Shown here in pieces: positions 245 through 14,744 of a DNA stretch of 64,000 nt (its first letter is position 1; every line of letters begins with the position of its first letter). The notes beneath the pieces are model-generated. The model made no database searches. It had not been told where the DNA came from and worked only from the letters and a program-made list of their open reading frames with translations. Source of the stretch: Treponema sp. CETP13 (lineage in GTDB: Bacteria; Spirochaetota; Spirochaetia; Treponematales; Treponemataceae); the NCBI GenBank assembly GCA_001885315.1, contig MLPZ01000013.1, positions 62,001-126,000 on the forward strand. The letters are read 5' to 3'. The position numbers were made by a program, and so were the translations under genes.

Positions 245-2668
245 TTATTTATCGAAAAAATTTTTTACAGTTTTTAAAATATCATTAGAAGATTTGAAAC
301 ATTTTTTTGTATTTGGAATACTTCCTAAAAACAACTTTCCATACTGTTTGGTTATTAGTCGCTTATCTAAGACTACAACTGAACCATAATCTGTTGTACG
401 TCGCAATAACCTACCAAACCCTTGTCGAAATTTTATTACAGCAGATGGTAAACTTAATTCCATAAAAGCACTTCTATCTTGTTTTTCTATGTTTTCCGCT
501 CGAGCAGCATAAATTGGATCACTAGGAACAGAGAATGGTAATTTCACAATTATAACTTGAGATAGTGATTCTCCAGGAACATCTACTCCCTCCCAAAAAG
601 AATCCGTTGCAAAAAGAACACTGTTCTTTTCCTTCTTAAATAATTCCAATAATCTAAAACGATCATCATCACCTTGCTTATATACTTTTATTCCTTTTTT
701 AGCCAATGGTAACGAGGTTGCATTCCAAGCAGAGCGCAAGGACTCGTATGAAGTAAATAACACAAGAGTAGCCCCACCAATAGCCTCACAAAGCTTTTTT
801 ATCATATCTTCAACATAAAATTGAAAATCGACAGAATTAGAAAAAGGAGCATCTGTAGGTATACTCAAAAGTAAATTTGAATCATACGGGAATGGAGATT
901 TATATTCACCTGTAATTATTCGATCAAAATCTGCTAAATATGCTCCATTCCTAGTCATCCAATAATTGAAATTCCCTGCAATTTGTAGAGTTGCTGACGT
1001 ACAAACAACAGTCTTAAAAGGCTCATATACGCCTTTATTCATAAAAGGAGCAATATTTAATGGAGTTTGAATAAGTTGAGGATATACCTTATCATAAATC
1101 ACTCTTTTTTCAATCCAAAAAACAGTTTCTCTTTGTTCTTCCCATTCACAAAAATTATGACAAAGTACACCTGTAGAATCCAGACGGCTTAAAATCATTT
1201 TGGTTTCCCAAACTATTTCATTTTGTTGTTCATCTTCTGGAATTCCTTTTATGATTTTTCTTATAAAACTTGTATATGTAGCTATATCTTTATAAAGCAC
1301 ATCTAATAAATAAAGAAGATTTTCAGCAGAAACTACTGTTTTATCACTTAAACGCCATGAATAATTATCTCCTAAAATTTGCAAAGCACTTTCTTCCATA
1401 TCTTCAATATGATGTTTAAACTCTTGAGTAATAGTAACAAGTTCTTGTATAGAAGCATTTTCAGAAGAAAGTGTCTCTAAAACATAAAAATAACCTGCTA
1501 TAGCTCCTTTTCGTTTACGATAAATAAGATTCATTTGCTTTAATAATTTAAATCTGCTTATCCTCTCAGAAAAAAAACTTGTTGCTGCATTTTCAATACC
1601 ATGTGCTTCATCTAAGATAATTCGTGTATACGAAGGTAATACAGCAGTATCATCATAACCAACTGTCATTCTCATTTCTATATCAGCAAAAAGCATATGA
1701 TGATTTACAATTAATATATTTGCTTCTGAAGCTTGTTTTCTCATCTGCATTACAAAACAGTCTTCATGAAATGGACAGCGCATACCTAAACATGCATCAG
1801 ATTCAGAATTTATACGTTGCCAAATACTTTCTTTTGGCATAAAAGATAAATCTGAACGGCTTCCTGTTTGTGTTGTTTTGGTCCATTTATGAATAGTTTC
1901 TAACTCATCATTTTCATCACTAAATAAGTCTTTTTCACCTAATGCATCATTCAAACGACGTAAACAAACAAAGTTTTGACGTCCTTTTACAAGAACAACT
2001 TTTACCTGTTTATTTATTACTTTTAATGCTGTAGGAATGTCTTTTTCATATAATTGATGTTGTAAATTAATAGTTCCAGTGGATATAACGACTCTTTCAT
2101 TATTTTCAATTGTCCATAATAATGCTGGTATTATGTATGCATAAGATTTTCCGACTCCTGTCCCTGCTTCAAAAACACCTATTTTATTATCGTTAAATAC
2201 CTCACAAACAGATTTTAAAAGTTCTATTTGACTTTTCCGTTCCTCAAAATATTCATTTTGTTTGCTTAAAGGGCCATCATTTGAAATATAACTGGCAGTT
2301 TTAAGCAAATCTAATGAAACCTTTTTTTTTAATCGAATGGGTTCAACAACTACATAAACTTCTGTTACTTCATTATTTATTATAAAAAAACCACGAGTAT
2401 TCTGAGCACAAATACTTGCTACATTTTGGTCTGCTAGAGAAGGATAAAGAACTCCAGATGGATGATTATGAATAAAAACATTACTTTTGTAAGATTCTGG
2501 ATGCACAATAACATCATTCTCTGTTCCACGTGCAAAAACGGTAATGTTATTAACTAAACCTTCTTCAGAAAGAAAACCACCCGCAAAAACTTCATTTCCA
2601 TGTGCTTCGCTTATAGCCTTAAGAAGAGTTTTTTTTGCGTGTTCAGAAAAACGTTTGTTTATATCCAT
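245..2668 (-). CDS. dinG: DinG-family ATP-dependent helicase with N-terminal JAMM (RadC-like) domain
   Basis: 807-residue product starting at MDINKRF. Residues 1-110 form a JAB/MPN-type domain with a complete JAMM signature: E26, H67-N-H69, seven residues, S77, two residues, D80 (HNHPSG as in RadC). Residues 130-807 are an XPD/DinG superfamily-2 helicase: Walker A EAGTGVGKS (167-175), four cysteines for an iron-sulfur cluster (FVCLRR, then CLGMRC and EDC), DEAH box (LDEAHG), CTSATL, and motif VI (RQGFGRLLRR). DinG helicases unwind DNA 5' to 3' and resolve R-loops and G-quadruplexes; the JAMM part suggests a peptidase or scaffold activity but this is inferred. The frame stays open upstream to 2824 only because it reads through tRNA-Glu, so the ATG at 2668 is chosen. 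That ATG directly abuts the T run of the tRNA terminator and has no Shine-Dalgarno sequence. Confidence 0.9.
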   Translation of the reverse strand: MDINKRFSEHAKKTLLKAISEAHGNEVFAGGFLSEEGLVNNITVFARGTENDVIVHPESYKSNVFIHNHPSGVLYPSLADQNVASICAQNTRGFFIINNEVTEVYVVVEPIRLKKKVSLDLLKTASYISNDGPLSKQNEYFEERKSQIELLKSVCEVFNDNKIGVFEAGTGVGKSYAYIIPALLWTIENNERVVISTGTINLQHQLYEKDIPTALKVINKQVKVVLVKGRQNFVCLRRLNDALGEKDLFSDENDELETIHKWTKTTQTGSRSDLSFMPKESIWQRINSESDACLGMRCPFHEDCFVMQMRKQASEANILIVNHHMLFADIEMRMTVGYDDTAVLPSYTRIILDEAHGIENAATSFFSERISRFKLLKQMNLIYRKRKGAIAGYFYVLETLSSENASIQELVTITQEFKHHIEDMEESALQILGDNYSWRLSDKTVVSAENLLYLLDVLYKDIATYTSFIRKIIKGIPEDEQQNEIVWETKMILSRLDSTGVLCHNFCEWEEQRETVFWIEKRVIYDKVYPQLIQTPLNIAPFMNKGVYEPFKTVVCTSATLQIAGNFNYWMTRNGAYLADFDRIITGEYKSPFPYDSNLLLSIPTDAPFSNSVDFQFYVEDMIKKLCEAIGGATLVLFTSYESLRSAWNATSLPLAKKGIKVYKQGDDDRFRLLELFKKEKNSVLFATDSFWEGVDVPGESLSQVIIVKLPFSVPSDPIYAARAENIEKQDRSAFMELSLPSAVIKFRQGFGRLLRRTTDYGSVVVLDKRLITKQYGKLFLGSIPNTKKCFKSSNDILKTVKNFFDK

Positions 2669-2700
2669 AAAAAAAAAGACCGGTTCATAGAACCGGTCTG
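2669..2700 (-). terminator. tRNA-Glu terminator
   Basis: Read on the minus strand, a perfect 9-bp stem (AGACCGGTT / AACCGGTCT, loop CTATG) is followed by nine T residues. It begins four bases after the tRNA 3' end, and its T run ends at the dinG start codon. Confidence 0.9.
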
Positions 2701-2703
2701 TAA

Positions 2704-2775
2704 CATCTCCTAGGGGAATTGAACCCCTGTTGCCGGGATGAAAACCCGAGGTCCTAACCACTAGACGAAGGAGAC
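2704..2775 (-). tRNA. tRNA-Glu (anticodon UUC)
   Basis: A 72-nt cloverleaf on the minus strand. The acceptor stem is GTCTCCT / AGGAGAT with G as discriminator base; the anticodon stem is TCGGG / CCCGG with loop TTTTCAT giving anticodon TTC; the T arm is CAGGGGTTCAATTCCCCT. CCA is not encoded. It has its own promoter upstream and a terminator immediately downstream, so it is a single-gene unit. The D arm (TCGTCTAGTGGTTAGGA) is typical of bacterial tRNA-Glu. Confidence 0.96.
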
Positions 2776-2814
2776 AAAAATTAATTAACATGGTTAGTGT
2801 CAATCGACTTTGAT

Positions 2815-2843
2815 AATTTACCAAAATTATTTATTTATGTCAA
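2815..2843 (-). promoter_or_regulatory. Sigma70-type promoter of tRNA-Glu
   Basis: On the minus strand TTGACA (2843-2838) is followed by a 17-bp spacer and TAAATT (2820-2815). Transcription would start near 2808, about 33 nt before the mature tRNA. A second TTGACA at 2803-2798 lacks a good -10 box at the right distance. Confidence 0.7.
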
Positions 2844-2873: not shown

Positions 2874-4139
2874 CTAATTATTTATACCCAAACAATTTTC
2901 AGCAAGAATTCGTAACTTGCGTGTATCATCATCATCTAATCCTAAACGCGCTGCTTTATCTATACCAGCGATAGCTTCTTCATTTTTACCTAAACGATAC
3001 AAAGACATTGCTCGCCGATAATTTACATGTGCTTGATAAGGATTGATAGCTAATGACCTATCAAAACATGTTAAAGCTTCCTCCTCTTTATTCATGACAC
3101 TTAGAACAATACCCATATAATACAAAGAATGATAATTTTTTGCATTATAATCAATACTTTTTTTAAAATCTTTAATTGCATTTTCATAATCATTCATAGC
3201 AAAATATGTCATTCCCCTATGTTTATGCATAACTGAAAGAACTTGTTTTGATGGCATAGGATCTGAAGAAATTATACGAGTATAAATTGATATTGCATTT
3301 TCATTATCACCATTATTTTGAGCATGTATTGCCTCTAAAATTAAATCATCAATAGTACCCTTTACATAAGGAGATGAACTTGCAATATTTTTATAACTAT
3401 CCATAGTTCCAGAAATTTCTGTTTTAGCGTTTATCTTATCTGTTGTAAGAACATCTGCTTGGCGATAAAAAGCTTCTCTTCTTTTTGCTAATTCATTATT
3501 TAATTTTCTTTGATAATCTCGTACTTCTTGAAAAAGAATATCTGTCAGGCTTAAACTTGCATTCATAGACGCAAGCTTTCGTCTTAAAGGTAAATCAAAA
3601 GGTGAAAATGCTGATTTATATATAAGCTCATGCTCAACTTCAGCCCAGGCATCTTGAAGAATTGTTCGAATTTGAATTTCACAAACCAACCCTTCAGGAA
3701 ACCTTTTTAATGGAACTGTTTCTTTTATTTTTTTTGGAATTTCTATTAGAATATGAATTGATTCATAACCAAATTCACTATATGAACGTTCAGCCCCTTT
3801 TCGTTCTACTTCTAAAATAGAAAAAGAATCTTTTAAATTTTGTTCTACAATAGATAAATCATCAAGAAAGGGACATATTATTCGCATTGCAATAAGATCA
3901 GTTAAAACAGGAAATTGTTTTTTATATAAGGTTTCAGGTTGAACACGAATAACTTTACGATAATAACTCTCAAAACTTTTAATTCTTGTTTTTATGGTTG
4001 GTACTGAATGTGTCTTTAGTTTAGATTTTACAGTTATTTCTATTTCATGTAATAATTTTGTAAAAATAGGATAATATGATTTATATGAATTAGAAAGTTC
4101 ATCTTTTGATTGGATTATATTAGTTTTATTGTTATTCAT
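2874..4139 (-). CDS. RelA/SpoT-domain (p)ppGpp synthetase-like protein with C-terminal TPRs
   Basis: 421 residues. Residues 40-230 match the Rel synthetase fold: TRIKSFESYYRK (RxKS/T region), D81 in DLIAMRI (metal-binding Asp), GYESIH (124-129), E154 in EIQIRT and WAEVEH (165-170). There is no HD hydrolase, TGS or ACT domain, so it resembles a small alarmone synthetase (ATP plus GDP/GTP to ppGpp/pppGpp) rather than long RelA/SpoT. Residues 265-415 hold about four TPR units, probably a protein-interaction or autoinhibitory module. The gene lies downstream of flaA beyond a terminator and upstream of tRNA-Glu. Synthetase fold is confident; catalytic activity is inferred from the motifs. Confidence 0.85.
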   Translation of the reverse strand: MNNNKTNIIQSKDELSNSYKSYYPIFTKLLHEIEITVKSKLKTHSVPTIKTRIKSFESYYRKVIRVQPETLYKKQFPVLTDLIAMRIICPFLDDLSIVEQNLKDSFSILEVERKGAERSYSEFGYESIHILIEIPKKIKETVPLKRFPEGLVCEIQIRTILQDAWAEVEHELIYKSAFSPFDLPLRRKLASMNASLSLTDILFQEVRDYQRKLNNELAKRREAFYRQADVLTTDKINAKTEISGTMDSYKNIASSSPYVKGTIDDLILEAIHAQNNGDNENAISIYTRIISSDPMPSKQVLSVMHKHRGMTYFAMNDYENAIKDFKKSIDYNAKNYHSLYYMGIVLSVMNKEEEALTCFDRSLAINPYQAHVNYRRAMSLYRLGKNEEAIAGIDKAARLGLDDDDTRKLRILAENCLGINN

Positions 4140-4171
4140 CTCTTTCTTTTAATAAAATTTAAAAGTACATT

Positions 4172-4203
4172 AAAAAAGCAGTAGACACATCTACTGCTTT
4201 TTT
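4172..4203 (-). terminator. flaA terminator
   Basis: Perfect 11-bp inverted repeat AAAAGCAGTAG / CTACTGCTTTT (4174-4184 with 4191-4201), six-base loop, with A/T runs on both flanks. It lies 20 nt after the flaA stop codon and separates flaA from the Rel-TPR gene. Confidence 0.9.
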
Positions 4204-4221
4204 ACGATAACCGAATGATTC

Positions 4222-5313
4222 TTACTGAACCGTTACAGGTTCTTCATCTTCTGTAGCAGTTATAGTTGGTTGAAAACCAGTTTCTTCAGCCATCTTATTT
4301 TTTTCAATAAAACGATTAACTTGTAATTGACCAAAATTGGACATTTCCCAAGCTTGTTTTTTTGCTTCACTTTCTGTAACAATATTCCAAATATCCTCAT
4401 CATCAATATCACGATCAGTTTCTAGAACAGCTTTATCATATATAATCTTTACATCTTTAAAATAACCTACAAAATCGCCACCATCCATAGAAGCATCACG
4501 AACAATTTGAAAACCAATAAATTTTACATATGGTAATCCTCGTGGATACAATGGGTATAATCGAAATTCACGTGAACGAACCTCTGACAAATATGAAGGA
4601 TTCTCCCACTGTAATTCTTTCCAACCATCAAATAAAAGATTACCCATAAAATATCGTCTTTCTACACCGTCAGTATCACTAAGCAATACATACAAAGTAT
4701 GAGGAAACTGCATTCCATAAGTAGTTACAGCAAGAGATTTTACTGTTCCCACATTTTTTACTATACCATATGCAGCAGTATCACTATCATATGCCTTTTC
4801 AAAACGAGTAGCTCCACTTGCTTTTTCTTCGTCAGTCTGAGCATCAGCTGCATTTCCATTTTCATCGTAACTAATTAATTCATCAAAAGCAGGTATTTCA
4901 TATGGTGGCACTATTCGAGCATTTGCATTTGCCTTCCATGTTGGGAATGATACTCTTACTCCCATAACGTTCGAACCTGCAAAAGGTACTTCTGCACTTT
5001 CTTTTACAGGAGCAGGTATAACCATAGAATTTGTAATAGATGCAACATTTCTCGAAGATGAGTTAAGAACAACTTCCCATTGACTAAGTGCAAGAGAAGT
5101 TTTCATCAAAGCTTTCTGACTCTCTGTGTATGTAGAACCAGCGTTAACTGAAAAATCCATAACAGTCCTTGAGTTTTGTGTAGGATTTCCATTTCCATCG
5201 GGAAGGATATCTGCATCCAAAGTCCCAAAATCAATAATTGTTGCTTCTTCGGCAAAAGCTAAACCACTTGCTAGCATACACGCTGCAATAAGTAAACCTA
5301 AAGACCTCTTCAT
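4222..5313 (-). CDS. flaA: Flagellar filament outer-layer protein FlaA
   Basis: 363 residues with a clear signal peptide (MKRSLGLLIAACMLASGLAFA, cleavage before EEATI), as expected for the sheath protein of spirochaete periplasmic flagella. The mature part has the FlaA-type beta-rich pattern (GVRVSFPTWKANANARIVPPYEIPAF, LYPLYPRGLPYVKFIGFQIVRD). FlaA coats the FlaB core in the periplasm. A strong ribosome site (AAGGAG) precedes the ATG and a sigma70-type promoter lies upstream, in line with FlaA genes being sigma70- rather than sigma28-driven in treponemes. It follows the glycan/amidase operon in the same direction. Treponemes often carry several FlaA paralogues, so the exact paralogue is not assigned. 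Confidence 0.9.
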   Translation of the reverse strand: MKRSLGLLIAACMLASGLAFAEEATIIDFGTLDADILPDGNGNPTQNSRTVMDFSVNAGSTYTESQKALMKTSLALSQWEVVLNSSSRNVASITNSMVIPAPVKESAEVPFAGSNVMGVRVSFPTWKANANARIVPPYEIPAFDELISYDENGNAADAQTDEEKASGATRFEKAYDSDTAAYGIVKNVGTVKSLAVTTYGMQFPHTLYVLLSDTDGVERRYFMGNLLFDGWKELQWENPSYLSEVRSREFRLYPLYPRGLPYVKFIGFQIVRDASMDGGDFVGYFKDVKIIYDKAVLETDRDIDDEDIWNIVTESEAKKQAWEMSNFGQLQVNRFIEKNKMAEETGFQPTITATEDEEPVTVQ

Positions 5314-5389: not shown

Positions 5390-5890
5390 TTATTTTGCCA
5401 AATCATTAGCTTTAACAAAATCTTTACCACATATCTCATTTCCAGCTATAAAAATTGTAACATTTTTTATACCTCTTACGAGGTGTTTTATATTCAATCG
5501 CATGAGTTCACATGCTTTTTGCGTATTTGACGTACTTTCATCTTGCATAGATGCATCTTCAGAAAGATTTACATAGATAGAATTCCCCTCTCTATAATTA
5601 AAGAGTGATTTTGTTCCATTCTTAAAAAGAGCCTTATACCTGTAAGTCTCTGGCCCTAATAATAATTCTTTAATAACAAAATCATCTTTTGTTAATGGAG
5701 AATCTGTTTGCATCCATCTTTCCTCAGTATACAAAGAATCATAATCCATCGATTCAAATACAAATACAAATCTCTTACCAGGTCCTTCTTTTATATATAA
5801 AAAAATTGATAAAAAAAGACAAACAACAATTACCGTTATTAGTATTTTGTGAAATTGAGAAATATGACGTTTAAAAAAATGTGTTATCAT
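5390..5890 (-). CDS. GerMN-domain membrane-anchored protein
   Basis: 166 residues. A hydrophobic segment at about 16-33 (ILITVIVVCLFLSIFLYI) anchors an extracytoplasmic domain. The rest resembles the GerMN domain: FVFVFESMDYDSLYTEERW, then LLLGPETYRYKALF, then YVNLSEDAS. GerMN domains occur in GerM and LpqB and are usually linked to cell-wall enzymes. Its ATG overlaps the TGA of the amidase (ATGA), so the two are translationally coupled, which supports a cell-wall role. It is the last gene of the operon, just ahead of the flaA promoter. Confidence 0.7.
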   Translation of the reverse strand: MITHFFKRHISQFHKILITVIVVCLFLSIFLYIKEGPGKRFVFVFESMDYDSLYTEERWMQTDSPLTKDDFVIKELLLGPETYRYKALFKNGTKSLFNYREGNSIYVNLSEDASMQDESTSNTQKACELMRLNIKHLVRGIKNVTIFIAGNEICGKDFVKANDLAK

Positions 5891-6930
5891 GGTATACCGG
5901 TAAAACCCTTAGAAGTTTCGAAATGTTTTACAAAAGAAACAAGTCCATTATATATTCCCAATGCAACTTTATGCAAGTAGTTTTTATCTATGAGATAAGC
6001 TGCCTCTTGTGTATTTGAAATAAAACCCATTTCCACAAGCACACTAGGCATTTTTGCATTTTTACAAACGAACCATTCCTCTTCTTTTATTCCTCTTGAT
6101 AGCGAAAAAGAGCCTATTTCTTTTGCTAATCCATCATCTATATATTTTGCAATTAAAATACTCTCTGTTGTAAATTCCTCTTCCATCATAGAATTTAATA
6201 TTGGTTGCAATTCTTTATCTGCTGAAGAATCAGTTAAAACGTTTCTTCTATAACCAGGACTTAAATACCATACTTCATATCCATTTGCTGTTGTATCAAA
6301 AGCTGAGTTCGCATGAACAGAAACAAACAAAATTGCTTCATTCTCTTGTAAGACTACACTGTTAGCTTTGTCTGTACGTTGCGCTAGTGATAAAAAATAA
6401 TCATCGTCCCGTGTAAGTAAAACCTTTTTATCAGGGAACGTTCGTAAAAGCATTGTATAAAGATCTTTGCCAACCGTTAATGTCAAATCCTTTTCTCTAA
6501 TTGTTTGTTTTTTACCGTTTATGACCTGAGTGGACATTGCCCCAGGATCTTTTCCCCCATGTCCAGGGTCAATTAATATTGCCCCTATTCTATATTTACT
6601 TTCGGGTGGAATTGAATTAAATAAATCTTGCAAAGTCGTTAAAAAATTAGAATCAGCATATATACTTCCGTTTTTATTTGTTAATGTATTACATACTTTT
6701 ATTTCACTGTAATCTAACAATACTAAATTGGAATAGGCCGAAAAAGAAACATGATGCCCATTTTTTTCTAAAATTCCATTACTGGACATCCCATCCCAAT
6801 ATAATGTTGAACCAGTAATCTTTGCAATTTCACTTAAACTTATCATTTCTGAAAGAGAAGTGTTCTCTGCTTCTATTATAGAAGTAATTACTAAGATTGG
6901 AATTAAAAATATAAGTTTTTTATTTTTCAT
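5887..6930 (-). CDS. N-acetylmuramoyl-L-alanine amidase (Amidase_3)
   Basis: 347 residues with an N-terminal hydrophobic export signal (KKLIFLIPILVITSIIEA). Residues 30-75 resemble the copper-amine-oxidase-N-like module often found ahead of this enzyme (ISLSEIAKITGSTLYWDGMS). Residues 113-335 are a zinc amidase: H124 in DPGHGGKDPGA, E146 in IREKD, H206 in VSVHAN and catalytic E300 in LVEMGFISN. It cleaves the amide bond between muramic acid and the stem peptide in the periplasm. It overlaps its neighbours by 4 nt at both ends (ATGA). AmiC-like by family; whether it acts in division or flagellar insertion is unknown. Confidence 0.92.
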   Translation of the reverse strand: MKNKKLIFLIPILVITSIIEAENTSLSEMISLSEIAKITGSTLYWDGMSSNGILEKNGHHVSFSAYSNLVLLDYSEIKVCNTLTNKNGSIYADSNFLTTLQDLFNSIPPESKYRIGAILIDPGHGGKDPGAMSTQVINGKKQTIREKDLTLTVGKDLYTMLLRTFPDKKVLLTRDDDYFLSLAQRTDKANSVVLQENEAILFVSVHANSAFDTTANGYEVWYLSPGYRRNVLTDSSADKELQPILNSMMEEEFTTESILIAKYIDDGLAKEIGSFSLSRGIKEEEWFVCKNAKMPSVLVEMGFISNTQEAAYLIDKNYLHKVALGIYNGLVSFVKHFETSKGFTGIP

Positions 6931-8456
6931 TTAGCATTTGTCCTATTAGTTTCACAAAAATATACAGCTCCTTGTAAACCACCTCTATAAAAAGCATGTA
7001 AAAATTTTTTATCCTTCATAGGGACCTTTGTTTTTATTAAAGAAGGTAAAATAGAAAGACTTTCTTTTATTGTTAGTCCATTCCAATCAGTCATGGTACT
7101 TTTTTTAGCTTCATTAAGGGACATTAATTCTGATACAGGAAAAGCAGACGGTGGAAATTGAGTATCAAGTGGTTGTTCTAAAAAAGCGTCAGTTTGTTTG
7201 TTATGTGTTGAAAGTCTAATAAATATACATTTTCGTGCTTCATTACAGGCTTTGCTTGCGTCATTTCGATTTTTTAAACAGGAAATGACATTTCCAGCTT
7301 TTTCAACATTGTTTAATGGAAAACTTGTTATATCACCAGCTGATATTCGAGGGAAAACATCTCTAACACCAGGAATTGTTTTTGCTTTCGATATGTTTTC
7401 AATTTTAGTTGCCATTCCAGGAATTGAAATCCATGCTCTTTCAGCACTTGTTAATGAACAAGGCACTTCAAATATATCATCCATCCCTTCTATAGGAATA
7501 CGTCTTTTAATGAGTTCATTCGGAGTTTCTCCTAAAGCAAGCAAAATAGCTTGTTTTGTTACGTTCAATTTTGATGCATATGGATATGTCCAACCTGACA
7601 TATATCCACCAGAAAGTCTTCCAGCAATTTCACCAATCATAGGTCCTTTAGAAGTAAGCTTTATGTCTGCTTTTGCCGCGCCATAGGTAAGTCCCAATGC
7701 TTTTATACCATTAACAAAAGCCGTAAGTAAATCTAACTTTTCTGATTCTGATACTATTGTCGGTATAGTATGTCCCATTTCTATAAAATAAGGTGGATAA
7801 AATATGTGTCTATCAGCAAACCCTGTAATTGTAATTTCTCCATTAAAAATAAGAGCATCTATGGAATACTCTTTGCCATCCATATAATCTTCTAAAATTG
7901 CCTGCTTTGTTCTAGAATATTTTATAGCTTCATGTATTGCAGGGTTAAATTCTTCTATACTGCGAATCATTCTGCAGCCTCTTCCGCCCATATTATCACA
8001 CGGTTTTACTACAAAATATTTTTTGTCTTTCTTTAGTGCTTGAAATGCACTTTGTGTATTTTTTTTAATTGTATCTAGTGAAAGTTCAATAAAATCAGGA
8101 GAAGCTACTTTGTTTTTAAAACAAGTACGCATTAAGATTTTATTACTTGCATTGAGAGCAGCTTGAGGTGTATGTGCTTGTAGCCCAACTTCGGCTGCAA
8201 TACAAGAAACCGCATAAGAAAAATCTGTTCCAGCAGTAAAGACACCATCGATCCCGTTTGTTTTTTTCATTTCCAACGCAAGTTTTTTTAAAGAATCTAT
8301 ATCTTTTAAATCTATTTTTTCAAATCTATCAGAAAGAGGAACACATATCGCATTTTCATTTGCATCAACAACGGTGATATGACAACCAAGTTCTCGAGCA
8401 CTCTCGATTGCAGGCTTTTGCATTAATCCGGCACCCAAAATTAGGATATGTTTCAT
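6927..8456 (-). CDS. ATP-grasp carboxylate-amine ligase-like protein
   Basis: 509 residues. The N-terminus is a nucleotide-binding pre-ATP-grasp fold (MKHILILGAGLMQKPAIESA). The central part carries ATP-grasp signatures: KKYFVVKPCDNMGGRGCRMI (phosphate-binding loop), ILEDYMDGKEYSIDALIFNG, and a metal site around IGEIAGRLSGGYMSGW. Family members join a carboxylate to an amine or thiol with ATP hydrolysis. The substrate cannot be read from sequence. It sits between the sugar cytidylyltransferase fusion and the amidase with 4-nt overlaps on both sides, suggesting it adds an amino-acid-like group to the sugar or peptide made by this operon (inference). Confidence 0.85.
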   Translation of the reverse strand: MKHILILGAGLMQKPAIESARELGCHITVVDANENAICVPLSDRFEKIDLKDIDSLKKLALEMKKTNGIDGVFTAGTDFSYAVSCIAAEVGLQAHTPQAALNASNKILMRTCFKNKVASPDFIELSLDTIKKNTQSAFQALKKDKKYFVVKPCDNMGGRGCRMIRSIEEFNPAIHEAIKYSRTKQAILEDYMDGKEYSIDALIFNGEITITGFADRHIFYPPYFIEMGHTIPTIVSESEKLDLLTAFVNGIKALGLTYGAAKADIKLTSKGPMIGEIAGRLSGGYMSGWTYPYASKLNVTKQAILLALGETPNELIKRRIPIEGMDDIFEVPCSLTSAERAWISIPGMATKIENISKAKTIPGVRDVFPRISAGDITSFPLNNVEKAGNVISCLKNRNDASKACNEARKCIFIRLSTHNKQTDAFLEQPLDTQFPPSAFPVSELMSLNEAKKSTMTDWNGLTIKESLSILPSLIKTKVPMKDKKFLHAFYRGGLQGAVYFCETNRTNAK

Positions 8457-10894
8457 ACTAATTCTCCTAACTCAGAAACTTTTATACAATAAACTTCAAA
8501 AGTATCACCTAAATTCATAAGTTTACTTTTCATTCTTAAATGGGCTTCCTTCTCTTTTGTATACCCTGGGAACCGTTCTGGGTGATGTCCTGTATATACT
8601 ATTTTTTTTACTTTGAAACCATATTTCTTCAAAAGTGCAGATACTTTTGCTGGTTCAAAAATTGTATAATGATCGCTTGGACTATTTTTATAGAAATTTT
8701 CCTTGTTATATTGTGCAGATACCCCTGACCCAGAAGGAGTAGAAAAGGCAAAGATACCGTTAGGAATTAACAAGGTTGATACTTTTCTTAAAACTGAATC
8801 TAAATTTTCAAAGTGTTCAATTACATACCACATTGTCACAGCTTCAAAACGAGTCCTACCAAAAGACTCAGCTGGCTCAAAGTCAGGGAAAAAAGATTGG
8901 ACAACAGGATATCCTAGTTCTTTATTTATGTATTCTATAGCTTCTTCTGAAGCATCAATTCCATAAGGGGTCCATCCAATATCCGCCGAAGCTGCTAAAA
9001 AAGGACCATACGCACATCCAATGTCAAATATAGCAGGAACAGTGTTTTTCTTACTATTATTTTTATGTTTTTTCCAATACAAGGCATCTATAACCGCAGA
9101 ACGTCGCACTCCTGCAGACTTTATCGAATTAAAATCTTCTAAATAGGTCTTTCCATACTGTCTTCTATAATTTTCAAAAAAATACGGTTCTTTATAAGAA
9201 ATACTTGGGGTAACATTAAATGAAATATATATTAACCCACAATGAGAACAACGTCTAAGTGTTTTATTTTCATCTCTAAAAATCACCTTATCTGGCTCTG
9301 TTTTTAAATTTTTAGTTTTAACAGAGCAAAAAGGACAACCCCTTCTTCTACAATTAGACACAGAAATCATTAAGTCTTCTAAAGATGATCTTTGCGCCAT
9401 TAAAGCTTTCTTCATTTCTTTACCACACCCTAGTTTATTAGGATGTAATATCATTTCTGAAATTGTCTGTGTATTTATTGCTCCATTCATAATACATGCA
9501 AATCCAAATTTTTTAGCTAATTGAATGTGCAAAGGTGTTGTTCCTAATAAAATAACGGCGCAATTAGCAGCAGCAGCTTCAAAGGCTGTAAATCCATAAT
9601 GAGTTACTACAAGATCGTACTTTGAAAGTTTCTCGCTAAGATTAGGAATTGTATCTCTAGCAACTGTTAAATCTAAGGAAGTTCCATCAACAGCTTTGAC
9701 ATTTTTAAAAGCTGTTTCTGCAATTGAGGTAAGTCCAGCAGGATCTTCTCCTCCAACTGAAATTAATACTTTATGAATCTCTGTAGTAAAGTTTTTACGT
9801 TTTTTTTGAGGTAAATCAATAAACGCTGGATTAAATATATTAGAAGAGCGATCCATGCTTAAAGAAGGAATTATATCCACTACAAAGTCGCAATATGAAG
9901 TATTTAGAGACCCCTCATCAATAGCTATTACAGGAGCTATAGCCCATAACTTTTGTGCCATTGCCTTAGAAAGAGAAAACATATCTGCCCAAATAAAATC
10001 ATATTTACGTTCAGTAAAACTATGAACAATTTGCCAGTCATCTAGTTCATTATTTTTTAAGGCATCGTCAATTAAACTACTGCATTGTTGTAAATTGTAA
10101 CTTTGTGGAATATATAAAAACGCCCCTGTTTTTGCAGCTAGTTTAATACAGCGTCTTAAATGTCCTGTCCCATGTCCTTTCTGAACGGAAGGACATAACA
10201 AAATATTTTTAGTAACAGTAGGAATACTAATTGTTTTAATAATTTTTGAAGCTGTATACGTTTTTTGTATTTTTTTTGTACCACTTATAACATGAACAAA
10301 TCTACGTGCAGTTTCATAATCCTCTCGTGTATCTATTGTTGTTCTAAGATTTGGAAAATTCCACTCTTTAGGGGCTTTTTCCATTATAATAGAATAATCT
10401 TCTGGGTATAAATAAATAGCAGGCCCAACATGTTCATGGTCATAGGCACTATCTGTTTTCTCTGCAGCATCAAGTAGAGTATGTGCATTAAAAACTTCAA
10501 CCCCACTACCATGCGGTAACCCTGTATATGTAAAATAATCACATTTTTTAGAAACAAAATTTTCGATCGATGCTTGTGCTGCATCATAGAATAAAAATGG
10601 ATTATCTCCGGTTGCTCGGATAAGAATATCAGCGTCTGTCTCTTTAATTATTAAGCAAAATCTTTCTAAGACGTCTTCTTTGGGCCCTGCAAAACATTCC
10701 CACCCCTTTTCTTTTGCAATTAAAGACAAAATAGGATAAGAATCTTCATCTGTTGCTAAAATATATTTATCTGCAGGAACACAATGCATTGCATCCATAG
10801 TCCAAGCAATTATAGGTTTACCACCAAGAGTTAAGGTTGCTTTTTGAGGAAGACGTGTTGAATCAAGACGACACTGAATTACTAATATAGTCAC
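8453..10894 (-). CDS. Trifunctional fusion: SpsF-like cytidylyltransferase, PseG-like domain, methyltransferase
   Basis: 813 residues from a GTG start that overlaps the upstream stop (TAGTG) and has CAGGAG nine bases before it; the frame is open 27 nt further but that part lacks such a site. Residues 1-230 are an SpsF/NeuA-type cytidylyltransferase (VIQCRLDSTRLPQKATL, RATGDNPF, HGSGVEVF). Residues 230-520 resemble PseG, a UDP-sugar hydrolase/GT-B half (GHGTGHLRRC, IDEGS, VLISVGGEDPAG, HYGFTAFEAAAAN). Residues about 520-570 form a zinc ribbon (CPFC, CSHC), followed by a class I SAM methyltransferase (FDIGCAYGPFLAASADIGW, MWYVIEHFENLD). The set suggests synthesis and methylation of a CMP-activated nonulosonate-like or related sugar. 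Domain assignments are firm; substrate is inference. Confidence 0.85.
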   Translation of the reverse strand: MTILVIQCRLDSTRLPQKATLTLGGKPIIAWTMDAMHCVPADKYILATDEDSYPILSLIAKEKGWECFAGPKEDVLERFCLIIKETDADILIRATGDNPFLFYDAAQASIENFVSKKCDYFTYTGLPHGSGVEVFNAHTLLDAAEKTDSAYDHEHVGPAIYLYPEDYSIIMEKAPKEWNFPNLRTTIDTREDYETARRFVHVISGTKKIQKTYTASKIIKTISIPTVTKNILLCPSVQKGHGTGHLRRCIKLAAKTGAFLYIPQSYNLQQCSSLIDDALKNNELDDWQIVHSFTERKYDFIWADMFSLSKAMAQKLWAIAPVIAIDEGSLNTSYCDFVVDIIPSLSMDRSSNIFNPAFIDLPQKKRKNFTTEIHKVLISVGGEDPAGLTSIAETAFKNVKAVDGTSLDLTVARDTIPNLSEKLSKYDLVVTHYGFTAFEAAAANCAVILLGTTPLHIQLAKKFGFACIMNGAINTQTISEMILHPNKLGCGKEMKKALMAQRSSLEDLMISVSNCRRRGCPFCSVKTKNLKTEPDKVIFRDENKTLRRCSHCGLIYISFNVTPSISYKEPYFFENYRRQYGKTYLEDFNSIKSAGVRRSAVIDALYWKKHKNNSKKNTVPAIFDIGCAYGPFLAASADIGWTPYGIDASEEAIEYINKELGYPVVQSFFPDFEPAESFGRTRFEAVTMWYVIEHFENLDSVLRKVSTLLIPNGIFAFSTPSGSGVSAQYNKENFYKNSPSDHYTIFEPAKVSALLKKYGFKVKKIVYTGHHPERFPGYTKEKEAHLRMKSKLMNLGDTFEVYCIKVSELGELV

Positions 10895-11862
10895 TATTTT
10901 TGGCTCCTGCACCGTTCCCAATTATCAACTAGATACGGCATATCCATTTTAAATCTATATCTATTTTTTTCAACCCATTTTCGAGCATCGATAAAATCTT
11001 TTATCGATGAAAATAAATTTTTAGATGCACTTCTAATATAGTTAAAAACTCGACTAATGGGAATATAAGCATGATCATTTGTAAAAACAGGTGCTGTATT
11101 TTTTAGGTAAAATCGTAACTGCATATAATCAACAGTACTATCTTCTAATGGAATTTCTTCTTCATACATAAATTTAAGCATTGGTGATATTTGTATTTTT
11201 TCACCCCACAACCAACCACGAAGAGAAAAATCTAGGTTTTGCCAATATGGATTTGTAAGCGTATAATCAAAACCTCCAAGTTGCTTAAATTTATTACAAT
11301 TGTAAATACCAATAAAATCAAAAGGGTATGCAGTATCAGAAAAACTTGAAAGAATAGTTTCTGGAGAAATAATAAGAGAATACTTCTCTACCGAAGGAAC
11401 CATACGTACTGGCAAATACATAAAAGAATTAGATTGCAAATAAGGAGCTGTACAAAAAATATTATCCTTAATAATTTTATCGTAACTATTTTTTGTTACC
11501 ATATTCTTTGTAATTTTTATATCATCCCACAAAACAAGTGCAAATTCCGTTAAAGACTCTCCAATTGCTGCATTTATCATTTCTCCAGAAGTAATTTTTT
11601 CTTGTGGAATAATAAATTTTACAGCAGGATAATTTTGCGCATATTCTTCTATAACATAACTTTGAGCTGAATTTTCAACACAAATAATTCTTGCGAAACC
11701 TTCTGACAAAAGGGTTTCTAATTGTTGGCTACGAAAATGAGTTCCACCTCTGTTTAATAAAATAACGGTAAGGGGAATTTTTATATTTGGAGAACAAACA
11801 TTTCCACCTAATATAGTGCGTTTAAATTGTCTTTCATTAAAAATTATAGGTATAGTATTCAT
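10894..11862 (-). CDS. Family-2-like glycosyltransferase
   Basis: 322 residues from ATG 11862 (MNTIPIIFNERQF; AAGG upstream); the frame is open to 11895. It has a GT-A pattern: LTVILLNRGGTHFRSQQLETLL at the nucleotide-binding start, then FALVLWDDIKITKN with an Asp pair in the DXD position, and FIGIYNCNKFKQLGGFDYTL, typical of an acceptor-site loop. It lacks membrane segments, so it would act in the cytoplasm. The start lies 26 nt inside the upstream spiro-SPASM gene and its stop overlaps the GTG of the fusion gene, so all three are coupled. Donor and acceptor are unknown; flagellin or an envelope glycan are possibilities suggested only by position. Confidence 0.7.
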   Translation of the reverse strand: MNTIPIIFNERQFKRTILGGNVCSPNIKIPLTVILLNRGGTHFRSQQLETLLSEGFARIICVENSAQSYVIEEYAQNYPAVKFIIPQEKITSGEMINAAIGESLTEFALVLWDDIKITKNMVTKNSYDKIIKDNIFCTAPYLQSNSFMYLPVRMVPSVEKYSLIISPETILSSFSDTAYPFDFIGIYNCNKFKQLGGFDYTLTNPYWQNLDFSLRGWLWGEKIQISPMLKFMYEEEIPLEDSTVDYMQLRFYLKNTAPVFTNDHAYIPISRVFNYIRSASKNLFSSIKDFIDARKWVEKNRYRFKMDMPYLVDNWERCRSQK

Positions 11863-13405
11863 CACATGCCTTACATTGAGAGCTATATTTCCCATCTAAA
11901 TGCGATTGAAAAGCCTGCATACCTTTTGCAAATATCTGATGCATAGAATCGGTAAATGCATTGCCACAATCAGGGAATTGCTGTTTGCCTACCTGTTTTG
12001 CAAATACAGCTTCTTTGCAAACAGGTACCGTCCCATCTATTAATATACACATATCTCTGCAAAGATGCCAACAAGGAGTTCGTTTTAATGGTTCAAGGTT
12101 TGCAACTGTTCTATCTTTTAGTAACCCTGTACAATTATCATATTTCTGAATAATGAATTTTTCATCAAACTGTTTATCCCAATATCGATAAAACTCTTCC
12201 ATTTCCATCTCATTATCTGTCATTCTTACAAATTGAGGGTATACTACATTTTTAAATGACTGTTTTAACAATAATACGGTTCTCATTGCCTTTTGATATA
12301 AGATGTTAGCCATTGCTATATCAGAAATATTCCTAATCTTTCCATAAGTCTCAACTTTTATAGAGTCTAAACGAATAATCCAATTTATCGGTTCCATATT
12401 AAAATTACGATTGCCACTTTCTTTTATTATTTGGGTAATTTCATTAATTAGATTTTCAGTTATTTCTATTCCATCTGTTTCAATAAGTAAAGATAAAGAC
12501 TTATATGATAATACCTTTTTTACGATTTTTACAAAATCAGGATGTAGTAAAGGATCACCAAATAATGAAAGTGAAATAACCGCATCGTCAGAAAAATCTG
12601 CAATTTTATCAATAAGAATTGCTAATTTTTCAAATGACATTCTATTATTAGGTTCATATTGCATATTTGGAGTATCATAAATTGTAGGATTTTTAACCCC
12701 CTTGACTATTTGTACTTCATAATATGCCGGCAAAGTGCGTAATACGGATGCAGTATTTATGGCTTCATCACAAAGAGTGTACATATTAAAATTAGCAGCA
12801 TCAAAAGTATTTTGCATACTTTGGGTTTCATTTTGAACAAGTTTTTGTACTAATTGTTTACACAACAAAAAATTACGTTTTGTATCACAGGAAAAATCTA
12901 TTCGAAAAGAACGATAATCTTTTTTTGAAAGTACTGTTTCAATTTCAAAAGAATTTATATCAGTTTGCATTAATTCAAAAATTGAATTTTTTGATATAGG
13001 ATTTGTACAAAAATCTGCTTTATCTTTTATCAATGTATTCAGAATCTTTACCGTACCAATATTTAAAACTTCAGGAGCAATTCCATAAGGGAATCCATCT
13101 GCAAAGGTATATTCAGCAGCATATTTTAGTTGTGTCTGCAACAATTCTTCTGTAATTGTTGTACTATAAAAAGGACATTCAGAATGTGCAAAAATGATTG
13201 TATCAGCTTCATATTCAAGAGCATTTTTTAGCATATAATCAAAAACGTCCTTCAAAGTTTGTTTGTTTTCAATTGTTTTGATTGCACATACATTTGAAAT
13301 TTGTTTTGCCCACTGTAAAGATCGACTTATAGCATTCTGCCCAAGGATATTTTCTTTTGCATACTTTCCGGCTTCTCCGGCATACAATATTATCAAATTT
13401 TTCAT
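11837..13405 (-). CDS. spiro-SPASM protein: degenerate nucleotidyltransferase, Cys-less radical-SAM-like and SPASM domains
   Basis: 522 residues from ATG 13405 (MKNLIILYAGE); the open frame begins 72 nt earlier. The first 200 residues resemble a degenerate sugar cytidylyltransferase (LGQNAISRSLQWAK; TIIFAHSECPFY; DGFPYGIAPEVL). Residues 220-430 follow a radical-SAM barrel (VISLSLFGDPLLHPDF; LLIETDGI) but the CxxxCxxC that should bind the 4Fe-4S cluster is absent (region YEVQIVKGVKNPTIYD). The C-terminus is a Cys-rich SPASM domain (PCWHLCRDMCILIDGTVPVC ... QCKAC). This fits the spirochaete-restricted spiro-SPASM family; the function is not established. It opens the six-gene operon. Confidence 0.85.
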   Translation of the reverse strand: MKNLIILYAGEAGKYAKENILGQNAISRSLQWAKQISNVCAIKTIENKQTLKDVFDYMLKNALEYEADTIIFAHSECPFYSTTITEELLQTQLKYAAEYTFADGFPYGIAPEVLNIGTVKILNTLIKDKADFCTNPISKNSIFELMQTDINSFEIETVLSKKDYRSFRIDFSCDTKRNFLLCKQLVQKLVQNETQSMQNTFDAANFNMYTLCDEAINTASVLRTLPAYYEVQIVKGVKNPTIYDTPNMQYEPNNRMSFEKLAILIDKIADFSDDAVISLSLFGDPLLHPDFVKIVKKVLSYKSLSLLIETDGIEITENLINEITQIIKESGNRNFNMEPINWIIRLDSIKVETYGKIRNISDIAMANILYQKAMRTVLLLKQSFKNVVYPQFVRMTDNEMEMEEFYRYWDKQFDEKFIIQKYDNCTGLLKDRTVANLEPLKRTPCWHLCRDMCILIDGTVPVCKEAVFAKQVGKQQFPDCGNAFTDSMHQIFAKGMQAFQSHLDGKYSSQCKACDEYYTYNF

Positions 13406-13464: not shown

Positions 13465-13493
13465 TAGACAGATACATGAATATTCGTTATTTT
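13465..13493 (+). promoter_or_regulatory. xseA promoter
   Basis: TAGACA (13465-13470), 17-bp spacer, TATTTT (13488-13493). Start of transcription near 13500 puts the upstream ATG at 13476 outside the transcript and leaves AGAGAGG (13499-13505) as ribosome site for the GTG at 13515. Confidence 0.6.
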
Positions 13494-13514
13494 ATGTTAG
13501 AGAGGTTCATTCTA

Positions 13515-14744
13515 GTGATAGATACAATGCAAGATATTTTAACCACAGAAACACTTTCTGTAACACAATTAACTGATATATTAAAAGAACTTATTGAAGG
13601 TGCTTTTCCACTTATTACTGTTGAAGGTGAAATATCAAATTGTAAGCCCTCAAGTACAGGACATCTCTATTTTACCTTAAAAGATAAAAATTCTGCTATT
13701 TCTGCAGTAATGTTTAAAGGGCGATATCAACATATTTCATTTTTCCCTAAAGATGGACAAAAAGTAAAAGTAAAGGGATCTCTTTCTGTCTATAAAGCCA
13801 GAGGGACATATCAAATTATTATTACTGCAATTGAACCAGCTGGTGCTGGAGATATTCTGGCCATGCTTGAAGAACGAAAAAAACGACTGAATATGGAAGG
13901 CCTTTTTGATAGTAAAAATAAAAAAACACTGCCGTTTTTTCCAAAGACAATTGGGCTTATTTCAAGTCCAACAGGAGCTGGGACTCGTGATGTAATACAA
14001 ATAGTACAAAGACGAAACCCTAAAATTTCTATAATCGTTTTTCCAACTCCGGTTCAAGGGGAAGAAGCTGCTGAAGGAATAATAAAACAAATACACACAG
14101 CCAATGACTATGAACTAGCAGATGTACTTATTGTTGGCCGCGGGGGAGGCTCATTAGAAGATTTACTGCCTTTTAGTGATGAAGAAGTTGTTCGTACAAT
14201 TGCTGCTTCTGAAATTCCTGTAATTTCTGCAGTTGGCCACGAAATTGACTGGGCATTAAGTGATTATGCTGCTGATATGAGAGCCCCTACTCCTTCTGCA
14301 GCAGCTGAACTTGCTACACCGTTATATACAGAAATCCTTGAACGAATTGATAACTCTAAACATCTACTCTTACAAGAAATACTACATAAAAATAATAATA
14401 TGCGACTTTTAATAAAATCTTTTTCTGTAGAACAACTTGAGCTTAGATTTAGAAATATAGAACAGCCTATATTAAAACGTTTTGATGATGCAAAAGAAGA
14501 CTTATTAAATTCTCTACTAGAAAAAATAAAATTATATAGCCAACGCGTCGAAGTTGCAAAAAACAAACTTGAAGGAGCTAATCCAACAGCTATTTTAGCA
14601 AGAGGATATTCAATGGTACGAGATGTCGAAACAGGAACAATTATTCGGAATGTACAAGATACTCAAAATGGTAAACAAATTAAAATAACGGCAGCGACAG
14701 CAAATATTATAGCAAAGGTTACCAATATAGAAGGAAGAAAATAA
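13515..14744 (+). CDS. xseA: Exodeoxyribonuclease VII large subunit
   Basis: 409 residues from the proposed GTG at 13515 (AGAGAGG nine bases upstream); the frame opens at 13476 and an ATG at 13527 is an alternative. The N-terminal OB-fold is clear (VTQLTDILKELIEGAF ... VEGEISNCKPSSTGHLYFTLKD). The catalytic region has IGLISSPTGAGTRDVIQI, DVLIVGRGGGSLEDLLPFSDE and VISAVGHEIDWALSDYAADMRAPTPSAAAE, followed by the long helical arm. With XseB it degrades single-stranded DNA to oligonucleotides. First gene of xseA-xseB-mutL. Confidence 0.96.
   Translation: MIDTMQDILTTETLSVTQLTDILKELIEGAFPLITVEGEISNCKPSSTGHLYFTLKDKNSAISAVMFKGRYQHISFFPKDGQKVKVKGSLSVYKARGTYQIIITAIEPAGAGDILAMLEERKKRLNMEGLFDSKNKKTLPFFPKTIGLISSPTGAGTRDVIQIVQRRNPKISIIVFPTPVQGEEAAEGIIKQIHTANDYELADVLIVGRGGGSLEDLLPFSDEEVVRTIAASEIPVISAVGHEIDWALSDYAADMRAPTPSAAAELATPLYTEILERIDNSKHLLLQEILHKNNNMRLLIKSFSVEQLELRFRNIEQPILKRFDDAKEDLLNSLLEKIKLYSQRVEVAKNKLEGANPTAILARGYSMVRDVETGTIIRNVQDTQNGKQIKITAATANIIAKVTNIEGRK

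Follow-up and report, generated by a model that had tools for sequence, protein, structure and literature searches.

Among the described systems closest to the one considered here, the core flagellin FlaB of Treponema denticola bears an essential glycan of 450.2 Da (PMC9481697, which cites Kurniyati 2017), and the contacts between flagellar core and sheath in Leptospira are probably mediated by the flagellin glycan (PMC13144727). In Bacillus subtilis, SpsF and SpsG perform for legionaminic acid the same steps (PMC7439481) that we predict below for two domains of a fusion protein of Treponema sp. CETP13. Our search of the literature found no description of biosynthetic genes for the unusual N-acyl part of the T. 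denticola glycan; a full-text search on the name of the acyl group gave no leads, nor did the literature on T. pallidum and Borrelia locus tags. We analyzed a stretch of 64,000 nt of the Treponema sp. CETP13 genome (G000 in our set; contig MLPZ01000013.1, positions 62,001-126,000), hereafter the window, to which all unprefixed coordinates refer. It contains a row of genes next to flaA that most likely makes an unusual nine-carbon sugar coating the core flagellins. The row encodes a spiro-SPASM protein, a glycosyltransferase-like protein (GT), a fusion of SpsF-like, PseG-like and methyltransferase domains, an ATP-grasp ligase, an amidase and a GerMN domain protein. We consider it probable that the spiro-SPASM protein, SpsF, the PseG-methyltransferase and the ATP-grasp ligase (module A) are the dedicated part of a variant nonulosonic acid (NulO) pathway, with its remaining genes elsewhere, that O-glycosylates FlaB, while the GT, amidase and GerMN protein, with flaA (module B), form a separate envelope/periplasmic-flagellum module independent of module A, both modules being placed in one transcription unit.

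An earlier note on this DNA, made from the sequence alone, had proposed phylogenetic profiling of the six genes across spirochaetes and had suggested either flagellin or an envelope glycan as the acceptor. Of 393 Spirochaetota genomes, 286 encode a spiro-SPASM protein that exceeds the family cut-off; the presence/absence panel consisted of 80 genomes, 67 flagellin-positive and 13 flagellin-negative. Within the panel, the spiro-SPASM protein and the ATP-grasp orthologue each occur in 60/67 flagellin-positive genomes, the PseG-methyltransferase in 59/67 and the Maf transferase in 62/67, and each of them in 0/13 of the flagellin-negative ones. Among the genomes that lack both flagellin and module A there are large ones, up to 2.9 Mb, in which other sugar genes (dehydratases, aminotransferases) are kept. 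Five Borrelia-type genomes possess flagellin, and module A, NeuB, Maf, the dehydratase and the aminotransferase are all absent from them. (The T. pallidum, T. denticola and Borrelia labels on panel genomes are inferred, that of Borreliaceae partly from the FlaB sequence.)

The FlaB serine sites track the presence of the pathway: the serine of the VEVSQL motif is found in 50 of 58 non-Borrelia flagellins and that of the RIAS motif in 51 of 58, while both are found in 0/5 of the Borrelia ones, where E and D stand in their place. Both motifs have been discussed as glycosylation sites of T. denticola and are substituted in FlaB of B. burgdorferi (PMC7431986). The sugar is most probably carried by the FlaB core flagellins and not by FlaA: FlaB bears the known T. 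denticola glycan (PMC9481697) and its serines track the pathway. FlaA, encoded in the same unit, would be a very improbable acceptor, for all that flaA is the next gene of the unit and adjoins it in most of the sampled families of the class Spirochaetia. NulO/Maf glycosylation takes place in the cytoplasm. FlaA, on the contrary, has a signal peptide that directs its export to the periplasm (PMC9481697); according to the title of a 1998 paper by Wyss (cited in PMC13144727), Treponema flagellins are glycosylated and the sheath proteins are not; and in Borrelia flaA stands beside the GT, amidase and GerMN genes with no NulO genes present. On these grounds FlaA was rejected as the acceptor.

Several observations weigh against the assignment of module A to FlaB glycosylation. 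The co-occurrence counts and their Fisher p-values ignore shared ancestry and are descriptive only, and they reflect about four or five independent events, namely some three or four losses of flagella plus a single loss in Borrelia. In T. denticola, the source of the characterised glycan, the glycan genes are dispersed and lie away from the flaA unit. One genome, G289, has module A but is without strong matches to the dehydratase or the aminotransferase; PseH-like GNAT proteins scoring below the cut-off occur in 18/80 genomes; and the methyltransferase profile fits sugar C-methyltransferases (5t64, TcaB9) and O-methyltransferases of the UbiG type about equally. Finally, the flagellated G276 encodes Maf and NeuB and lacks the spiro-SPASM protein, the PseG-methyltransferase and the ATP-grasp ligase, and therefore NulO transfer is not strictly dependent on module A. 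One flagellin of G276 (L215) has E at the second serine; the NulO system of this genome may be simpler, or its assembly may have a gap.

The locus consists of two interleaved modules and is not one six-gene pathway, because the GT-amidase-GerMN genes and the glycan genes occur apart. In Borrelia, which lacks the glycan genes, the GT, amidase, GerMN and flaA genes stand compactly and in unchanged order; GT-amidase-GerMN is kept without flaA in three flagellin-less genomes, and the GT-amidase pair in others. The reverse case is locus L194, with the full glycan set, the amidase, GerMN and flaA, but no GT. A single six-gene pathway was rejected for this reason, and the GT, amidase and GerMN protein probably constitute an envelope module independent of the glycan genes. 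The earlier note supposed that the set ties the sugar to the cell wall, and this was not supported: the amidase retains the intact hydrolase motifs DPGHGG, EKDL, SVHAN and VEMGF, and there are genomes with GT-amidase-GerMN that have no glycan genes. In the flagellin-less loci L180, L182 and L183, the GT-amidase pair lies downstream of matches to aldehyde dehydrogenase and amino-acid kinase/PUA (annotated in L182; proA/proB-like).

The same distribution bears on the possibility that the operon makes an envelope glycan, linked to the outer membrane or peptidoglycan, with only an indirect link to flagella, both being lost in reduced or non-motile lineages. The presence of a cell-wall amidase gene and a GerMN gene in the same transcription unit, as well as the persistence of GT-amidase-GerMN in flagellin-less genomes, agree with it. 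However, it is precisely the envelope-like genes that remain where module A is absent, whereas module A is missing even from the large flagellin-less genomes that keep dehydratases and aminotransferases and tracks Maf and the FlaB serine sites, so we regard an envelope product as unlikely. Of the two acceptors named in the earlier note, flagellin is thus well supported by the profile, FlaB being the most likely one, and the envelope is disfavoured.

As to the layout of the locus, open reading frame (ORF) and domain-profile analysis of the window found six ORFs on the minus strand with flaA downstream on the same strand. The gene of the spiro-SPASM protein (11837..13405; TIGR04321, 473.7 bits against a cut-off of 250) overlaps by about 26 nt that of the GT (10894..11862, with its start at 11862 and an alternative in-frame ATG at 11895), recognized by its AlphaFold fold and structure matches. 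The GT gene overlaps that of the 822-aa fusion protein (8453..10921; CTP_transf_3, 97.4 bits; Methyltransf_23, 74.8 bits) by 28 nt, provided that translation of the fusion begins with the TTG at 10921. Overlaps of 4, 4 and 4 nt then join to it the genes of the ATP-grasp carboxylate-amine ligase with an LAL_C2 domain (6927..8456; ATP-grasp_4, E 3.5e-13; LAL_C2, E 7.3e-10), the N-acetylmuramoyl-L-alanine amidase (5887..6930; Amidase_3, PF01520, 156.7 bits; with an N-terminal hydrophobic segment) and the membrane-anchored Germane (GerMN) domain protein (5390..5890; PF10646, E 1.3e-4, exactly at the cut-off). A gap of 76 nt separates the latter from flaA, encoding the flagellar filament sheath protein (4222..5313; PF04620, 252.1 bits). 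The best terminator-like site of the minus strand, a candidate intrinsic terminator with a 15-pair stem and a T-tract (4171..4204), lies just 3' of flaA, and the terminator scan of this strand found no such site between the genes of the unit; the predicted transcription unit therefore comprises seven genes, flaA being the seventh. Its upstream limit is xseA, transcribed divergently from the plus strand (13476..14744; TIGR00237, 436.8 bits). The promoter scan of the locus gave sites no more frequent than in shuffled sequence. Experiments in T. denticola have demonstrated that flaA is co-transcribed with four genes upstream of it (PMC9481697). The earlier note described a coupled row of six genes beside flaA with overlaps of 1-26 nt; the row was confirmed, with flaA itself joining it, and the overlaps proved nearly right, differing in the values given above.

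The order of the genes is conserved far beyond chance. In a set of 80 Treponema-type loci, with counts given over testable loci, the order spiro-SPASM, GT, SpsF/PseG/methyltransferase, ATP-grasp, amidase, GerMN, flaA is found in all 56 of the 56 loci holding all seven genes, with compact spacing in 50. A positional orthologue of GerMN is present in 52/52 loci, flaA comes after GerMN in 50/51, and xseA is divergent and upstream in 38/39. The same order is seen in most sampled families of the class Spirochaetia, where SpsF is a separate gene and PseG is fused to the methyltransferase; flaA adjoins the unit in most of them as well. In the putative T. denticola genome (2,843,201 bp; a 349-aa FlaA, as in PMC9481697), the spiro-SPASM, GT and fusion genes stand together, and the amidase, GerMN and flaA genes occupy a separate site; the closely related G019 has its ATP-grasp gene in isolation. 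The putative genome of T. pallidum Nichols (1,139,633 bp) has the unit split in the same way with all genes kept; despite its 1.14 Mb, it retains spiro-SPASM-GT-fusion, ATP-grasp, NeuB, Maf and an adjacent dehydratase/aminotransferase pair.

The fusion protein begins with an SpsF-type cytidylyltransferase domain (residues ~11-215; CTP_transf_3), the conserved RxxSxR...K and DNP motifs of which point to a CMP-NulO synthetase. The PseG-like hydrolase region follows, with GHGTGHLRR at residue 249 and then a Cys-rich linker; its TIGR03590 match (E 1.1e-8) is below the cut-off, and the PseG residues GxGHxxR are invariant in 12/12 relatives, as in hydrolases of the PseG type. A class I S-adenosylmethionine-dependent methyltransferase domain is located at residues ~625-771 (Methyltransf_23). 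The ATP-grasp protein, by its core and LAL_C2 domain, belongs to the L-amino acid ligase family; its family profile matches the L-amino acid ligase BL00235 (3vot, E 4.6e-38) and BacD. In at least 17 genomes outside the class Spirochaetia, and at loci L203-L205 and L191, the orthologue is fused to FMN_dh, a domain of the 2-hydroxyacid oxidase family, which fits a 2-hydroxy acid substrate. In the putative T. pallidum genome, the glycan cluster has a stand-alone relative of the FMN_dh domain (E 6e-37; L115:14341-15222) two genes downstream. The earlier note proposed the addition of an amine-type group; the step is better read as the formation of an amide bond on an amine by an L-amino-acid-ligase-like enzyme.

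The other genes of a NulO pathway are found elsewhere in the window's genome. An NeuB-type synthase (G000:C16:10680-11405, E 1.0e-56, below the TIGR03586 and TIGR03569 cut-offs) stands among unrelated genes, and no PseB-C-I operon was found around it. The genome also encodes a putative UDP-GlcNAc 4,6-dehydratase (PF02719, E 7.5e-107) and a putative sugar aminotransferase (PF01041, E 1.3e-86), assigned by their profiles; this dehydratase and the DegT aminotransferase are adjacent in most relatives (at 84.8-87.1 kb in the putative T. pallidum genome) but not in G000. Maf-type transferases are represented by five PF01973 loci, one of which matches FlagModPseD below the cut-off; across the genomes, there are one to five Maf-like transferases per genome. 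Two tandem Maf-like genes lie about 15 kb from the window start, and a PseD/Maf-like gene overlaps a gene of the PBP2/SpoVD type (L188:7402-10478 and L189:6181-9937). The acetyltransferase PseH (TIGR03585) is over its cut-off in 0/80 genomes, the best match in G000 (E 2.4e-15) being below it; therefore we do not classify the system as a classical Pse pathway, but only as one working like it. PseG and SpsF of the operon, together with the genes elsewhere, would thus make up a NulO route lacking only the acetyltransferase.

The following succession of steps, in which the substrates, the order and the acceptor are what we infer, can be proposed. The PF02719 dehydratase and the DegT aminotransferase would produce a UDP-4-amino sugar. 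The ATP-grasp ligase would take the place of PseH and form an amide between the 4-amino group of this sugar (later N7) and a sugar acid, which the methyltransferase would O-methylate. Then the PseG domain would remove UDP, NeuB would condense the sugar with phosphoenolpyruvate to a NulO, SpsF would convert it to CMP-NulO, and the Maf-like transferases would transfer the CMP-activated sugar to Ser/Thr residues of FlaB. The glycan of T. denticola FlaB is reportedly a pseudaminic-type NulO with 2-methoxy-4,5,6-trihydroxyhexanoyl as the N7 acyl group. For this structure, that is, Pse5Ac7Ac with its N7 acetyl swapped for the above group, we calculated a residue mass of 450.185 Da. A methoxy-acyl amide on a NulO would need a methyltransferase and an amide ligase, and the predicted attachment of an O-methylated sugar acid by the methyltransferase and the ATP-grasp ligase fits the 450.2 Da glycan of T. 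denticola FlaB.

Alternatively, the ligase might add an amino acid, or act late, on CMP-NulO or on the glycoprotein, instead of coupling the UDP-4-amino sugar with a methylated sugar acid. The LAL_C2 domain and the closest structural relatives, which are L-amino acid ligases, would suit this, and Campylobacter jejuni has several forms of pseudaminic acid that differ in the N5-acyl group, di-O-methylglyceroyl being one (PMC3068675). However, the fusions to a 2-hydroxyacid oxidase-like domain, the neighbouring methyltransferase and the reported structure of the T. denticola glycan favour a hydroxy or methoxy acid; we would give this alternative a minor though appreciable share of the probability.

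As for the second gene of the unit, its product has no match in NCBIfam or in Pfam (in the latter at E 0.01), and its AlphaFold model (pLDDT 92.2) supports its reading as a glycosyltransferase-like protein with a GT-A fold. The closest folds are those of polypeptide GalNAc-transferases (Foldseek E 1.3e-12; VIA-align Z 19.9, the next family having 15.6); the likeness to this family, GT27, is in fold only, and sequence-family membership was not found. The residues of the GG[FY]D and [DE]F..R signatures are for the most part conserved; in the DxD region, the acidic position varies. Derivation from a divergent SpsF was rejected (hhalign probability 0.2). Since GalNAc-transferases of this type act on Ser/Thr of proteins, and the gene occupies the middle of the operon, this protein might be the flagellin transferase, with the Maf proteins doing something else. 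Yet it is present in Borrelia, which has no NulO genes, and in flagellin-less genomes, it is absent from G206, which has module A, and Maf, Borrelia apart, tracks flagellin without such exceptions; we find this even a little less credible than the envelope product and retain Maf as the probable transferase.

The spiro-SPASM protein, to judge from its sequence and AlphaFold model (pLDDT 91.2), combines an SpsF-like N-terminal domain, a degenerate radical S-adenosylmethionine (radical-SAM) barrel and C-terminal SPASM/twitch cysteines. An hhalign comparison of the family with SpsF shows kinship over the N-terminal ~200 residues (probability 96.9, E 1.4e-10); residues 1-230 align with the Leptospira cytidylyltransferase 6oew (VIA-align Z 20.4), and residues ~175-522 with SuiB and BtrN, of the radical-SAM/SPASM fold (Z 20-22). 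The CxxxCxxC motif binds the catalytic cluster of radical-SAM enzymes. At its site in the window protein (12674..12697, minus strand), V, T and D stand at residues 237, 241 and 244, so that radical-SAM chemistry should not be assumed; for the window organism such chemistry was rejected. Among the 113 aligned members of the family, the motif is intact in 46 and lost in 67, including members of the T. denticola and T. pallidum types, and the four SPASM cysteines (C445, C463, C511 and C514 here; 11864..12073, minus strand) are kept in 113/113; the Pfam SPASM match of the window protein is just below the cut-off. The family tree, a quick one with some long branches, demands at least seven changes of state of the motif, five of them forced by well supported branches. 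A non-radical role of the auxiliary cluster is likely in the species without CxxxCxxC, because this motif is lost while the SPASM cysteines are invariant. It is unusual in evolution for a radical-SAM cluster to be lost repeatedly while the auxiliary cysteines stay invariant.

Taken in full, the scheme would be an undescribed route in which the ATP-grasp ligase, the PseG-fused methyltransferase and a 2-hydroxyacid enzyme amidate a NulO precursor with an O-methylated deoxy sugar acid, replacing acetylation by PseH, and in which a repeatedly "killed" SpsF-based radical-SAM protein survives only as an auxiliary Fe-S protein; in this complete form we hold it tentatively, at somewhat less than an even chance. 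The analysis yields a named, testable set of genes with a predicted enzyme for each step, including the orthologues in the putative T. pallidum Nichols genome; it sets the glycan genes apart from the GT-amidase-GerMN envelope module and predicts the loss of the whole pathway and of the FlaB sites in Borrelia.

Directly 3' of flaA, beyond the terminator-like site, the window encodes a RelA/SpoT-domain protein with C-terminal TPR repeats (2874-4139, minus strand), kept at this place in 41/45 testable Treponema loci. It is followed by a helicase of the DinG/YoaA type (245-2824, minus strand), an unusual fusion in that its N-terminal part has a match, narrowly above the cut-off, to a RadC-like JAB domain (PF04002, 22.6 bits).

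In comparison with known systems, the proposed pathway shares with PseB-C-H-G-I-F and Maf of Campylobacter and Helicobacter the dehydratase, aminotransferase, PseG-like hydrolase, NeuB-type synthase, CMP-transferase and Maf, and flagellin Ser/Thr as the acceptor. It differs from them in having the ATP-grasp ligase and the PseG-fused methyltransferase instead of a PseH over the cut-off, and in its distribution over several loci with a linkage to flaA, the amidase and GerMN. Like the sps operon of B. subtilis (SpsC, D, E, F, G, M), it pairs SpsF with an SpsG/PseG-like protein and has an NeuB-type synthase (SpsE) elsewhere in the pathway; in Treponema, however, SpsF and SpsG are fused, together with a methyltransferase, whereas sps functions in the spore crust, with SpsD as its acetyltransferase. 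Genomes of the T. denticola group hold all genes of module A, although in T. denticola itself, the bearer of the 450.2 Da glycan, they are dispersed. The di-O-methylglyceroyl pseudaminic acid of C. jejuni (PMC3068675) provides a precedent for an O-methylated sugar-acid amide on a flagellin NulO, but it is formed on N5 and needs the aminopeptidase-like Cj1295, no ATP-grasp ligase being named. The spiro-SPASM protein, finally, resembles TIGR04321 and other radical SAM-SPASM proteins in its score far above the cut-off, its SPASM cysteines and its BtrN/SuiB-like fold, and differs from them in its SpsF-like N-terminal domain and in the loss of CxxxCxxC.

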